DNA from: Halichondria panicea
Taxonomy: Eukaryota > Porifera > Demospongiae > Suberitida > Halichondriidae
Assembly: GCF_963675165.1 (NCBI RefSeq)
Contig: NC_087385.1
Location: 2,170,501-2,234,500 of the forward strand
Direction of reading: 5' to 3'
DNA: 64,000 bases
A program made the translations under genes and the position numbers. Of the stretch, positions 13,709-22,700 are shown piece by piece; position 1 is the stretch's first letter; each line of letters begins with the position of its first letter. The notes below the pieces were generated by a model that worked only from the letters and a program-made list of their open reading frames with translations, was not told where the DNA came from and ran no database searches.

Positions 13709-16700
13709 TCATAATAATTGTGTCATTTCAGTTAAGAAAGTTCTTAGAAATGTTCGTCTCCTGACATGAGCTGCTCTCTTGAGAACCTCACTGCTGTTGT
13801 TGGTGTTCAACTCAGGCTGACCAGCCACTTGCATCTGAAGGGGGTTTATTAGCAGTGTACAAAACATTAATGAGTGGGAAGATGGCCCTCAGACTAACAG
13901 CTGAACAAATAATTTTGCTGAGGAAAATACGCTGGCTCAATATAATTATTTATACACCTGGTTCAATCACACAAATTAACTCACAGCAATTTTCTGCTTG
14001 TGTTTGTCGCCCTTTGACGTGAGAGTGTCTATGAGAGAAGTTAAGGCACATCTTCACAGATCACACAAACACTCAGTCACACAACAGTACCCATTCAATG
14101 GCATTAAACTAGTGCATAAAAGACAATCTATGTACAGTGTACAATTTGATGTTTAAGCTTCAAACTCTTGAAAGGGGAGGTCCGATCAGGCGGGGCCCTC
14201 ACCAGGAGCTGGGGGGGTATTTATTAGCAACAAACTTTTAAGGTGCCAATCTGTCATTACAACACACAAGTGAGAATCTGGATACCTCAGACACGTAACA
14301 CAAATCCAAGTTGTAATATTAACCGTGAGACAATGAGGATACAGATGAGATATTCGATGATGGTCATGTCCCAGAGGTGTGTGAACAGTCCCTCAGTCAT
14401 GGCTCCCACGTTGCTCCTCACGATACCGAATGCACCCTCGTAATCCACCGGCTCTAACAGCTGACACACTATCAGGGAGTGTGTGTGATAACGCAGCCTC
14501 GTGCAACAAGCCCTTAGTCGCTGATGGACGATGGGAGACCAGATGGCCTCAGGCACTTCCGTCGTGAAGTGGTTACTGGCCATGGAGCCGACAGACAAGA
14601 AGCCATATAGGGCTGCACCGTAGTCTTGCTTTGCTGTGGAGAGAAAGTGGGTGTAGAAAATATGTATAGTTTTTGGTGTATACAGGGGGAAAGCAAAACA
14701 ATGTAAGACTGCATGTGTACAATGTGCACCCACTCATGCAGGTAAGACTGCATTTCACTTTCTGTTATCGCCATTGTCTGCCTTACAATCAAAGGACAGT
14801 CTTATACAGTTAGCTAAATCTCACCGCAGTAGAGGTGGGCCTGCATGAGTAGCCAGGAGGTGTTGTTAGGCTGTAGCCGTAGTGACCGCCTGATGGTGGT
14901 GCTCAGGGAGCGGTATACTTGCTGTACATCAATACTGCCAGGACTGAAGGGGTCAAAGGTTAGTTATAATGGGGGAGCATTATGGATACTCTGCCCATAG
15001 TTATAGATCTTATGAGTTTAATTCTAATCTCAGATGCCAATGTCTTTGACTATTAATTATTGATTGATGAATTGGTGAATTAATAGCGAAGTTGCAAAGT
15101 TAACTATCAAAACGTACATCGGGTAACATTAACTCACAAATTGCAACTTCGTTATTAATTCACCAATTCATCAATCAATAATTATTATTGGATTAAGTAA
15201 CTCACGTTCCAATGGCAGTCGGCCAGTGACTCTTGTACTCACTGAGGACTTCAAACTCAGGTTTCTACGCAGGAGGCAAAATAACACATTGATAACTAAT
15301 CAGCCTCAACATTCAGGAATCAAGTACGTACAAACTACACATGTATGTAGACTTCAAATTCCATCACACTCAATCACACCCAAACACTCCAACTGTACTT
15401 ACCTCTAGGAGGTTCCAGACTCTTACCAGGGCTGCCAGTAGCAGAGACAGGCTAGTGGTATCCTGAGGGGGAGATTGAGCTACAGGTCAGTACAGTGAAG
15501 CATACATGTGTATGTACACAGCTTAGATACTAGACTTAGGGGACAAACTATACGAGCACTTGAAGTGACACTCGTAAGTTTGAGGAATTGCATTTCTGAA
15601 TGATCGAGGCAGCTGTTCTCGGTGTTACTGTTTGCCTTACCATAAGGTTCTCTACGAAGACGTCCAAGTTGGCCCTGAGTTTGGACTGTCTCTCACTCGT
15701 CTCTGCCTTACCCTCCCCCGCATGAAGAGGGGGGCAGAACACCGTCAGCACTGAATGTGTGTACGTGTATGATAAGGGCACAGGCTACATGTATGTGTGT
15801 GCGTGTAAAAGGGAGGGTATGTAAAGGCACAACCTGTGTATGCCACAGTACAACAAACCTTGTCACTGTACAAAAAGTGTACAATGTTGTATGCCAGTGT
15901 ACAAACAACGTGACTGTCAATGTACAACAACAAGGACATGTATAAGCTATTTAGTATGAAAATGCTGAGAACCACACATTCAAGTAAGCTAACTTGCTGG
16001 GTGCAACAATCGTATATTTCACACAGTCAAACATAATGTACATGTACAGGTGGGACCCTACCAGTGTATGTGTTATACCTGCGTCAAAGAGGTCTCTGAT
16101 GGGCTTCCTCAACTCCCGTCCCTCCTTCACACAGTGGACACAGTTGGCCAGGCGAGGGGCAATCTGATGGGGGGAGGTGCATAAGAGTAAATGGCAAAAA
16201 TAGGTATCTGTCATCCTATTGCATGTACATACAAGACTTTTCTACACGTAGACTGTATGTACCTACATTCAATGTGTAAACTGAAAACAGCATAACAACC
16301 ATTCTGCACATTGTACTCCACCCACTTACTACACCCGGCTCCAGCTGTGTCTCCCTGGAGAAGAGAAATGAGTAGTGTTGGGTGTTCAGTAGCAGAGCAT
16401 TGGTCAGGTGTGACGTCACACTGTCACATGACTCTATAGTATTGGAAAAATAAAGCTACACACAGACTCAGTGATTGTAACGAGCTATAAATGTACACAT
16501 CCACTGATGGTAGTAACTCACTGTGTCTTCCATCCAAACAGTAAGCCTTTGACTTAGCAATCAGTGGAGCCAGCTCTCCGGACTGTAACCTAGGACAACC
16601 AGAGCAGATAGTTAATCATCAAATTCTGAAACAATGCTAACAGGTTCATAGCTGGAAAATGCTTCACCTCTTCTCCACATTGTCTGGCGTGAGGATGGTG

Positions 16701-19700
16701 TGAGTGTCCAGTAGTTCCAGAGTGAGTATCTCCTCCCTCAGCCACTCCTCCAGACCTTGACGGACGGGGGAACTGAGGGGTGTGGTCTTGGGGGAGAGCA
16801 GCTTCAGAGCACATGAGAAAATCTCAATAGACGATGAGTAACTCTGCAAAGGAGACAAGGAGTTCTTACAGCTAGTTTCTGGGCTACATAAGATCCTCTG
16901 ATGTATAATTATTTTCTTTTGTTAACACACTCACGTCAAGATGTTTCTACTTTGGTATCAAGGTTTAGCCAAAAACATTAATATGTGGCTTGGGAAATCA
17001 AATTGGTCAAGATCACAAAAATATTTACTGTGTATAAAGCACCACTACACAGTGGTTATCAATGCAAATGTATAGAAAGCTAGGGGAAATGGTAAAGCTT
17101 GAAATAGCCTATACCCATAATATGGTCTTGGGTATCGTATATCTTCTAATTGATCAGTTTTTCTGGGCAATTTTTTAATAGCGGACACTCTGGTACTTTA
17201 ACAAAAATTTATCCGGACAATACCGAAGCAACGTAGCTTTATAAGTCCAGCAAGGAGTGCTGCAATCGATAGTTTTTTGAGGATTAGCTAGTTTTAGATA
17301 GCTAGTCCAACTATTCAGTCGCACACTGTTCTATTAAACTTAGCTAGCTCGCACGCAGCTGCATGCCTGTTCTAATTATTCTGAATTATACCCAGACAAC
17401 TAACTTCCGAAAAAATTATTTTTTGCTGTCCGATAAAAATAATAATTAGAACATTATACAGTATATCCAGTCATACCTTAGCTTGTTTGAGAGTCTTCCC
17501 CCTGTGAACAAGGATGTTGTACTTTGTGAAGGTGAGAGGGTCGGTCATAGACTCCACGGGAACAAAGCCTTGAGACACGCCCACCCACTGTCAGGCAAAC
17601 AAACGCATGGTACAACTTACTGTTTAGGATCACATGATACAAGTATTAATGCAGACAAGATGCAACCCATCGTATAACGGGAAAATTTGGTGAGACATTT
17701 AAACGTTTAATTTGGTGTCTCGGGCGTGGCTACTCTGGTCAATGATGTTAGATCCACAGCTTAGATTTAATATTGGCAGTTAAATTTGGCAATCTTTGCC
17801 AAATCTTCCCGTTATACGGTATGTACATATGTAGGTGAGAGTACACATGCATTGTACCCGTTCTTATTTACAAAAACCGTCTTTGCAAACAACAATGTAA
17901 TGGCTAAGGACAAGGGAATGCACAAACTGTAATTGAATTCATCTGTGGTACTTAAGAGTCTCATGATATTCACTAAGTGCAAGGAAAGGCATGATTGGGC
18001 AGGATTTTAGACATATGACCTAAATTATTACCGGTCTAGGCTAAAGTCACCTTTATAGCGATGGCCCTATGTTGGTTGGTGGGTGTGGCTTTAAACAGTC
18101 TCTCCACAGCTGTCAGAGTGGCCTCGGCTGTGACCTCACGACACATTGCAGAGTCCAGGGTCTGTAGGGGTGAGCTGCTGTCCATGGCAACCAGCTCCGG
18201 CACAACTGTCTCTGACACAAGGCCACGATAGACAGACTGCTCCTGATAGGCAGAAAGAAATTTACTCAACAAACGTAAAGACAAAGTTATTCATAAGTTA
18301 AAGTAGGTCTTATAATAATCATGTGATGTTTAAAAAAAGCACAACAGGCAAAGTAGAAAGCAAGAAGAAAGTTTGAAGAGATGGGAAATAATAATACAGT
18401 TCCAGCTAATAATAAGCCAACTACAGTGTTTACATATCCAGACTTCTACAACCAAGTCAATGAGGTAACTACAGCGCTTATGCTTCCAGCTATTATTGAC
18501 CACCACAAGGTTGAGCTGTTGCCAGCTATTATTCACCACCAGGACCAAGATAATGAGCTAACAAACAAAAAGGAGTTGTATGCAGTTGCAAAGGCCAAAG
18601 CCCAACGAAACCAATCAAAATCGATGCTCTTTCGGGACTACAACATTCGATCAGAGTTGAAGCTTATTAAACTGTTGATACATGTAAATAAACTGTTGAG
18701 AGAGTGCACCATATATGCAATCGACCATATGCTTATATTTCGACATACAAGTTCAAAAAGTGTTCCAGTGCTTTCAATGTCTATGAAAGAGTTGGTTTCT
18801 CTCCTCAGGAGCATTCGCTCAGGCTGGGGTCCTCCACTGGAACTGGTCACAAGGATGCTCAATTCCAAGTTCTGGGTGATGGAGGCAGACGTCTGGGCTG
18901 ACCTGCTCATCGTCTGCTGCTGGGCCAACCCCACCACTATCTACTGCGAGAAATGCAGCAAAGATGTGGAATCAACTACCACCTCTTGCAACCATGTTGT
19001 GTGTCCTGTTTGCGTTGTGGGGAAGGGAATAGGTCCAATAAGCTGTCCTGAATGTGGGCAAAGATTGACTGCCTTGCTTTTCACGTCAGCATTGACATCC
19101 ACACCGGAAAAAATAACAAGTAGGTTCTTAAGGCATTTAAGTGTTGTTTTGTGCACTAGTGGTTATACAAACTTTTTCCTATCAACACAGGGAAGCGTAG
19201 TTTTTGCGAGTCAACAACAGCTGCCACTAAGAAAGCATGTACAAGCAAAGCATGTACAAGCTCAGGTTAGTTCAATTCTACAGCCTGACAACATAACTTT
19301 ACATACGTATTACTAATTAATTGTAGGCAAGGCAAAAAGTACAAGACCAAGACACAAAGCTGCCACACAAATATCTCAAACCAGCCCCTTCACAACATCA
19401 AACCTTCAAGGGCTATTTGAGACACTCTTCCCTGCTCGTACTAGCTGGTTCAACCTGGGTCTTGCTCTAGACATGTCGTGTGAAACACTCAAGGACATAC
19501 GCATCAAACAGAGGGAAGACTCGGGTGACTGCCTCAGAGAGATGCTAATTATCAGGCTAGAGGAAGAGTTAAGCAAAGAGGAGATTGTGGCAGCTCTCGA
19601 TACAGCTACAGTTGGACGATATTCTCTAGCACGGGAGGCGGAGAAAACTCTTTGAACTGAACTACTTTAATACTGCACATAATTATAAGCCACATGCACG

Positions 19701-22700
19701 CACATGATACCACATTGCACTAATGTTACATGTACATCTACAAAATTCAAGTTGGTCGTCTTGCTATCAGTGTATAAGAACTTTTTAGTGGAGACAAACT
19801 GGGACATTAATTAATCACCTTGTGTGATGCGATTTCTTTCACAGCAGACTTGAGTAGTCTCTCCCAGTCACGCCCACCTTTAGCTCCGCCCACACACAGG
19901 GTACGAACAAACGACTTGAGTCTGCATCGCTCCTCTGGACTCAAGTTCGTAGACAACAGCTGCTCACAAAGCTGCAGAGATGGAAGGGACAGATACTAGA
20001 GCACTCGAAATCTACGACAAGCATAATAGTGTCACTGTAACCACGTATATGTAATTTCAGTAAATGTAAAGTACTAGCTAGGCTGTACTTGTAGTTTTTG
20101 TACACATAGTCTTATTAGCTACGCAAATAGCATTTGAAAAATCACATTGCTAGACTCGTGCATTCAATGCTCGGAACCAAAACAAAATTTTCTTCTCTGT
20201 AACCTTTAAAAATAACATTAAATCTATACTCTCCATGTAATCACATTCTAATCACAAAACACACACCACACCACCACTCACACTGAGCACACAGTCCAGG
20301 AAACACACACCACACCACCACTCACACTGAGCACACAGTCCAGGAAACACACACCACACCACCACTCACACTGAGCATACAGTCCAGGAAACACACACCA
20401 CACCACCACTCACACTGAGCACACAGTCCAGGAAACACACACCACACCACCACTCACACTGAGCATACAGTCCAGGAAACACACACCACACCACCACTCA
20501 CACTGAGCACACAGTCCAGGAAACACACACCACACCACCACTCACACTGAGCACACAGTCCAGGAAACACACACCACACCACCACTCACACTGAGCACAC
20601 AGTCCAGGAAACACACACCACACCACCACTCACACTGAGCACACAGTCCAGGAAACACACACCACACCACCACTCACACTGAGCACACAGTCCAGGAAAC
20701 ACACACCACACCACCACTCACACTGAGCACACAGTCCAAGAAGGCCTCTCTCTCTCTACACAGCTGCCAGAACCTCGGCAGTGGGGACTTGTTCTCCATC
20801 ACCTCCCTCAGGCCATTGTATGCAGTCAGACCCTCCTCCATGGTGACCACATCCACCCCCTCGCGCCTCATCTTCTTACTGGGTGGCTCCTCTATTGATC
20901 GCTCTGTGGCAGCTGTCAACGCTCGCCTCTCAAGGCAGAGTCTGTAACCAAGGGGAAGCCCCTTACTCTGGAAGTCCCTAGTCAGGATATCACGAGTGTC
21001 CTGAAGAATACAAAATAAGTACATGCACACATAAAAATGTTGGCAACATAAATCATTCCTCACGAGCTCTAGCTTACAAAATACTACCTAAGACTATACA
21101 TGTACAATGAAAGCAACATGCATAATTATACACGTATGGTGGAATACTGTACACGTGAGTTTCGTACCGACCAACCGGACATTTTTACTGCCTCCAGTTC
21201 TGCTGCTAAATTCTCCACTATCACCCCCTCGCTAGCCTCGCAGGCATTGAGGAAGCCCCTGACCTCGTCCCTGTTAACAAACAGTGCACTGTGGGTGGTG
21301 GCTATGGAAGAGAGAAGATTGTGACATTGAACAAACAGCTCGCTAGCTCTGGGGAGGTCTCCCTGAGTGAAGTAGTAGCAACCAAGAGTGTAGCTGATCT
21401 GGAGGGTGGCAAGAGACATTGATCAATTATGTACGAGACTTTGAAGCTTATGTTTGAAATCCACTATTATTCTACACACACTCTTGTTCTAAGGTTTAAT
21501 CTAGGCATTTATTACAGAACCTAGCAAGCTACGGAGAACACGGACACCCTATGTATATTTATAAAAAGAAGAACTCACCTCACAGAGCACATGATCCTGT
21601 GGTCTGTTCCACTCATTCTGCCCCCCAGAGTCTGGGGGTTCCAAGTGCTCGACAGGCCCCTTGACAGTAGACAGGGACACACCCACTTTAGGAAGCTTGA
21701 AGAGATCGGGAACAGTGGCTGAGGAGAGGATCCCATTGAGTAAATCTAGTGCTTTGGAAACCAGTGGCTTCGTCTGTGAGTGTGTATGCGTGTGTGGAAG
21801 ACAAGTACTGGTCACATACACTCAAACGTTGTTGTTTTGATCCAACAGCTTAATTGCAGAGCCTGAGGTATTGTGTCAGTGCCTTTCACTACACACCACC
21901 GGGCGCCGGTATAATACACTGTAGCACGTACATTAAAACTCACAGTTGAATCGATTTGCTCCAGACTGTTGCTATTAGCCTCAGGGGCTGGTGTGCTAGA
22001 TCGAGAGGGTAGATTGGGCAGGTGCTTGTGACGGTAAATGAACCTGAGCACCCATTGGCTGTGGATCACATGAGCCATGAGTGTGTCCGACTCCTTGCTG
22101 AAAAGTGGGCCCTCCTGGACGTATGCATTACAGAGCTGCGACACTAGGCTGCACTGAATCAAGGTAGGGAGTCTGGGGCGGGGACAAGAGTGACAGTGTT
22201 AGAAACAAAGCACATGACAACATCTGAGGACAAGCAAACGTGCAGAGCAGTATGAGCCTCTTCACTTTGCAAAAGAGATTTTAATGGACCCAGAATGTGT
22301 AGGTCTTCAAAGATCTTCGTAGTTAAAAAAGGTATACTCTACGAAATGTTAAATAGCACAATTTATAGCATGTCATAAAGGATCATTACGTTAAATTCAC
22401 GCTCTTCCAGTCTCAATACACAGCATATTGTTTCATCGTGCACCTTTTCTCGATGACCTCCAGGTTCCAGTGAAGTAGGGAGCCGAGAAGCAGTGCACAG
22501 TTGACCAGAGCCACTCTCCGCTCTTCTTGTACAGCGCCGTCACCGGTTGCTCGTGGCAACTGGCCGGGGAGGCACTCGGCTTTCTCTAGGAATGTCCCTA
22601 TCAACTGGTAGGCTGTGGGCTCAGCTACAAGGAGCAAGCAAAGCAATGTCTGCTATGTGCATACATTGCAGAATTGTGTTACAACATTCAATTTTTCAGT

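Follow-up and report, generated by a model that had tools for sequence, protein, structure and literature searches.

A candidate RING-Death gene family, with one member likely nested in an INTS8 intron

Described proteins with RING and death-fold domains

Proteins that carry a RING finger together with a death-fold domain have been described in at least two settings. According to PMC4021871, BAR/RNF47 combines a RING with a SAM domain, a DED-like domain that binds caspase-8 and -10, and a transmembrane domain. In PMC8917759, the oyster IAPs include the arrangements TII-DD-RING (BIRC11) and TI-TII-DD-RING. We analyzed a window, a stretch of DNA of 64,000 nucleotides, in which a predicted gene places a RING ahead of a C-terminal Death domain. 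Like BAR, its product unites a RING and a death-fold domain in one protein, but BAR has SAM and transmembrane domains and a DED-like fold, whereas the window gene has no Pfam SAM match and its death-fold domain is a Death domain. Like the oyster DD-RING IAPs, it joins Death and RING in a lineage-expanded family; the oyster proteins, however, have BIR domains and a RING that follows the Death domain, whereas the window gene is without BIR and its RING precedes the Death domain. Membership in three families was rejected on the Pfam scan, which found no BIR (IAP), no B-box (TRIM) and no SAM (BAR).

Another combination of these domains was seen in the same genome. At C3:7740500-7747000 (locus L062), a Death domain, an ankyrin repeat and two PF13920 RINGs lie on one strand and form a candidate single gene, a stretch that resembles Mind bomb with a Death domain added. 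Death and RING are found there on one strand, 3.5-4.3 kb apart; the ankyrin repeat, the PF13920 type of the RINGs and the position of Death upstream of them distinguish this locus from the window gene. Paired RING places recur along C3 between 7.49 and 8.03 Mb. Our screen for neighboring Death and RING places (PF13920 only, same strand, at most 6 kb apart) returned two pairs at one locus. Its input comprised 75 RING places out of 148 and 99 Death rows out of 259; most long tandem RING frames of C3, C11 and C17 were omitted, as were many Death rows lying in clusters.

A RING-Death family was not found in the literature by title and start of abstract, a search confined to open-licence papers in which absence is weak evidence, nor was one found in passages of PMC2575513, PMC12909245 and PMC3137616. 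The second of these describes Death-domain NLRs of sponges, and no RING was found in passages of its main text. The first-pass annotation had regarded the gene as its best candidate for an undescribed architecture. That view is softened by BAR/RNF47, by the oyster DD-RING IAPs and by the Death-ankyrin-RING-RING stretch on C3. What distinguishes the family is that its RING comes before Death, that it has a core of its own, and that BIR, B-box and SAM are missing.

The gene model, its Death domain and its RING finger

The gene was rebuilt from the letters of the window as three exons on the plus strand, totaling 1,143 nt or 380 codons plus a stop (Table 1). Recomputing coordinates, phases and sequence reproduced the three in-phase exons of the first-pass annotation, separated by two phase-1 GT-AG introns. 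Independently of RNA-seq, the exon joins are supported by the same exon/intron layout, which could be modeled cleanly in 5 of 11 paralogous copies on C6. Inside exon 2 lies a 15-bp tandem duplication (19232-19261) that preserves the reading frame; this exon measures 60 nt in the five array models. An NCBIfam profile search gave nothing significant, and single-sequence structure prediction produced models too poor to interpret, both for exon 1 (pLDDT 38) and for exon 3 (pLDDT 46, four helices).

Table 1. Positions, within the window, of the RING-Death gene, its parts and the surrounding host-gene features.
Feature	Positions	Strand	Basis
Exon 1, aa 1-246 (N-terminus, core, RING)	18381..19119	+	open frame, GT donor at 19120
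N-terminal stretch, aa 1-133	18381..18779	+	own-genome search: self only
Family-specific conserved core, aa 134-188	18780..18944	+	read in 11/11 C6 copies and C15
C3HC4 RING finger, aa 189-225	18945..19055	+	exact pattern; family profile against PDB
Intron 1, phase 1, GT-AG, 71 bp	19120..19190	+	same position in 5 array models
Exon 2, basic linker	19191..19265	+	open frame, splice ends
Intron 2, phase 1, GT-AG, 61 bp	19266..19326	+	splice signals; array models
Exon 3 (linker end, Death domain, stop)	19327..19655	+	open frame; tblastn
Death domain, aa 297-377	19401..19643	+	hhalign to Pfam-Death-positive places; wider profile to FADD
Host-gene intron enclosing the RING-Death gene, 1,576 bp	18243..19818	-	splice signals, phase-0 flanking exons
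Host exon upstream of the intron	19819..19971	-	consensus splice ends, phase 0; INTS8 by inference only
Host exon downstream of the intron	18051..18242	-	consensus splice ends, phase 0
Open frame with recognizable INTS8 C-terminal exon of the host	14287..14733	-	TPR_INTS8, 7cun_H

Scanned against Pfam as a single 380-residue model, the protein yielded neither of the two domains assigned to it at first pass: there was no match to Pfam Death (PF00531) at E<=10, and the RING missed its cut-off (zf-RING_5, 17.8 against 27.9 bits, a database threshold and not a structural requirement). Profiles built from the family, however, recovered both domains.

For the Death domain, the copy on C15 also fell below the Pfam cut-off (0.0075). 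By tblastn, exon 3 matched Death-like places outside the family with E values down to 1.2e-15, and one such place, L060, passes the Pfam Death cut-off (24.9 vs 22.6 bits, 2.2e-5). When eight family Death exons were aligned by hhalign with Pfam-Death-positive places (28 of them, from 30 loci after two with stops were dropped), a probability of 96% and an E value of 3.7e-9 were obtained over 69 columns, against 0.043 for a reversed control and 0.32-0.54 for five column-shuffled ones. These results bear out the homology of the C terminus to Death domains, where the first reading had seen a Death-domain-like helix bundle.

Among solved structures, the best match of a wider Death profile, composed of 15 rows of which three came from loci seeded by Pfam Death, was FADD (1.1e-4), with PIDD (0.0024) and THOC1 (0.0077) also matched. 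FADD consists of a Death domain and a DED and is without a RING, whereas the window gene pairs its Death domain with a RING. The profile of the eight family Death exons alone matched no solved Death domain significantly, its best being PIDD at 0.53; the rows scoring above PIDD were designed TPR repeats without a passing stretch.

Residues 189-225 form a strict C3HC4 pattern, with eight zinc ligands in the right order and spacing. The exact RING annotated earlier at these residues was confirmed by recomputing the pattern and by the matches of the family profile to solved RINGs. A chance occurrence was rejected, as none of 20,000 protein shuffles gave the pattern and the paralogues keep it. Against the PDB, the family profile matched PCGF5 best (3.4e-6), and BRCA1 (7.7e-4) and TRIM21 (0.003) were also found; a value of 2.6e-5 for RNF4 holds only for a two-RING construct, the single RINGs giving 0.054 and 0.068. 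PCGF5, the closest RING by profile, shares the CPxCG ending, but the Pfam scan found no PCGF C-terminal domain in the window gene, which has a Death domain instead.

A rival view is that the window copy is an active single-subunit RING E3, binding an E2 directly and ubiquitinating partners in Death complexes as cIAPs do. Across a 7-row alignment, all eight zinc ligands are present and invariant, as is the Pro that follows C7, and both BRCA1 and TRIM21 are active E3 RINGs. However, in RINGs that bind an E2, position C1+2 is usually hydrophobic and C8 is often followed by a basic residue, and by this rule of thumb the putative E2-contact positions of the window copy are occupied by Lys191 and Gly226; the C15 copy has Leu at C1+2. 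In addition, the best profile match is to a PCGF protein, and PCGF RINGs pair with another RING and scaffold, PCGF5 being non-catalytic alone. We therefore doubt that the window copy acts directly as an E3, and consider it unlikely that the gene encodes such a single-subunit enzyme.

The paralogous family and the history of the gene

A DNA search of the genome (131 Mb in 39 contigs) with the core-RING exon uncovered 14 places: the window gene itself (on C9), 11 copies on C6, a single diverged copy on C15 and, on C14, a fragment. That the gene might belong to an expanded family had been suggested at first pass, and these 14 places, 11 of them in tandem, support it. The C6 array spans C6:2476545-2553315; its five cleanly modeled copies have a RING, a basic exon and a Death exon, with introns at the same places and in phase 1. 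In the C15 copy, too, the core-RING frame is open, and a Death exon comes after it on the same strand. Nine of the 11 array copies retain the strict RING pattern; for five of these the pattern program overran to a later cysteine pair although CPxC is present. The array copies L041 and L042 have a common frame break in the RING. On C15 the RING is loosened, with four residues, not two, between the last two cysteines, and the C14 fragment does not match the pattern.

The N-terminal 188 residues had initially been reported to match nothing. This stands for aa 1-133, which found only themselves when searched against their own genome at E<=10, but not for aa 134-188, the core before the RING, readable in all 11 array copies and in C15. 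With the C15 sequence as query, strong core matches were obtained only in C6, in the window gene and in C15 itself; the weaker matches were mostly RING-only or fell in a short repeat at the C15 N-terminus. Relatives were also sought in the viral_contigs and genome_contigs sets, where none of the 31 and 33 pattern matches, respectively, was confirmed.

Several observations were made in passing on the surroundings of these loci. The RING-Death fragment on C14 (L053, C14:2516367-2519540) is preceded on its strand by an open frame with a caspase domain (Peptidase_C14, 3.4e-56). Downstream of the array copies L036 and L037 on C6 there are coding pieces of two proteins, a glutamate dehydrogenase (PF02812, 1.7e-15) and a Mob1 protein (PF03637, 4.2e-17), and similar frames were seen at other copies. 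Pfam Death at E<=0.001 marks at least 148 places in the genome (150 of 503 candidates were scored), many of them clustered on C12, C14 and C1. A fragment of COX1 at C1:5280527-5280718 (L067) has two TGA codons in frame and may be mitochondrial DNA copied into the nucleus.

The window copy was compared with the five array models by pairwise dN/dS, a measure that does not isolate the window branch. The ratio was 0.16-0.26 for the core (aa 135-188; dS 0.19-0.37), 0.18-0.51 for the RING (dS 0.31-0.44), 0.55-1.06 for the linker and 0.31-0.44 for the Death domain (dS 1.17-1.30). Among themselves (n=5, aa 135-377), the array models gave pairwise values of 0.43-1.06; the array is thus not under strong constraint throughout. 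These array values, the frame-broken RING in two array copies, the fragmentary state of the C14 member and the lack of any relative of aa 1-133 in this genome would fit a window copy that is non-productive or in decay, its frame intact but without a function, in a birth-and-death array. Yet the copy has kept 380 open codons, GT-AG introns and a duplication that respects the frame, and the pairwise dN/dS of its core and RING, although not specific to the window branch, is well below 1; we regard decay as an unlikely account.

The silent sites differ along the gene. Synonymous differences were more frequent in the Death domain than in core and RING in all five window-array pairs (Fisher p 1.3e-5 to 8.5e-4), which are not independent as the window copy is common to all. 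In 20-codon blocks, third-position mismatch was 0.39 at aa 125-144, 0.07-0.28 over aa 145-264 and 0.40-0.65 from aa 265 on. That core and RING have a low dS because silent change is generally lacking was rejected, the C15 core showing a dS of 0.9-2.1 in four comparisons. Core identity was 0.89 between window and array and 0.65 between C15 and array. In a Death tree of 17 sequences with five outgroups, for which 11 of 28 had been dropped as short, distant or second domains, C15 and 10 array sequences exclude the window copy with a UFBoot of 95, the whole family receiving 63 and the array 38. A first tree of all 28 sequences had placed the window copy beside three short distant ones (0.80, UFBoot 79), and it was set aside because of the long branches of these three.

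By these sequence comparisons the gene is a mosaic, with a core and RING near the array and a Death domain that is much older. The best-fitting reading is that exchange with the array, or derivation from it, is more recent for the core-RING-exon 2 segment than for the Death exon. Either this segment would have been homogenized later with the C6 array, or the gene would be a chimaera that combines an array segment with an older Death exon. Intron 1 is 0.63-0.81 similar to that of the array, against 0.65-0.67 for shuffles (intron 2, 0.67-0.83), and the exons flanking it are 82-89% identical to the array; the dissimilarity of intron 1 (19120-19190) is not predicted by a simple conversion tract running across it. 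An origin as a retrogene was rejected, since both introns are kept at the positions of the five array models, and the copy probably arose by DNA duplication.

A wider reading of the family, put forward only tentatively, is that an undescribed core and a non-canonical RING are coupled to fast-changing Death domains. Gene conversion would keep the core-RING part uniform as the Death exons and N-termini diversify, and a single output module would thus be attached to many Death-assembly inputs.

The host gene and the possible role of the RING-Death protein

The RING-Death gene had been placed antisense within an intron of INTS8, and this is supported on the 3' side of the intron. The 3' exon of the host is INTS8, matching TPR_INTS8 at 5e-21 and human INTS8 (7cun_H) at 1.2e-14. 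The 5' side depends on splice phases and very weak collinearity: the host exons on the far (5') side gave no INTS8 match when searched alone, and neither did the exon 18051-18242, alone or with the next exon. A joined host query added two collinear INTS8 blocks flanking the intron (384-449 and 607-668), which are very weak (i-Evalues 200, on the 5' side, and 1.3e4), and one far-side exon resembles TPR repeats (designed TPR proteins, 0.05-2), as would fit INTS8. From this arrangement, it is likely that the gene is nested in an INTS8 intron. A 44-bp tandem repeat (11 copies, 98% match) occupies 20257-20742 of the window; it abuts a minus-strand host exon, whose open frame extends into it.

The explanation we favor, with about even confidence, is that the sequence encodes a member of a lineage-specific RING-Death family, a death-fold adaptor that would carry a RING module. 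Assembly of Death domains is homotypic, and the binding partners of RINGs are E2s or other RINGs. The C-terminal Death domain would join homotypic Death-Death assemblies, in a genome with at least 148 Death-like places, and would thereby carry the family core and the RING into the complex. Once there, the RING could ubiquitinate bound partners or, more likely in the window copy, pair with another RING and scaffold. Its role may lie in death or immune signaling, with a ubiquitin-related output.

A different setting was also considered, in which the RING would be of the nuclear PCGF kind and the Death domain used like that of THOC1. The best RING match is PCGF5, the wider Death profile also matches THOC1, and the linker at aa 244-296, with 12 K/R against 1 D/E, may be a nuclear signal. 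RING similarity alone gives no subfamily, however, and the Pfam scan lacks a PCGF C-terminal domain; we find a nuclear protein of this kind improbable. That the RING gene ends earlier and the Death exon is part of a different transcript, as the jump in silent divergence from the array between exons 2 and 3 might hint, is very improbable given that the five modeled C6 copies show RING, basic exon and Death exon in this order, likewise with phase-1 introns, and that C15 also has RING then Death on the same strand.

If the window gene is indeed a RING-bearing death-fold adaptor, it touches on general questions, as both death-fold adaptors and RING proteins are central to cell-death and immune signaling. 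A tandemly expanded fusion of the two, in which the RING parts stayed alike and the Death parts diverged, would illustrate how circuits of this kind are rewired. The family offers a definite set of paralogues for biochemical tests, and if the animal is a sponge, the fusion arose in an early-branching lineage.
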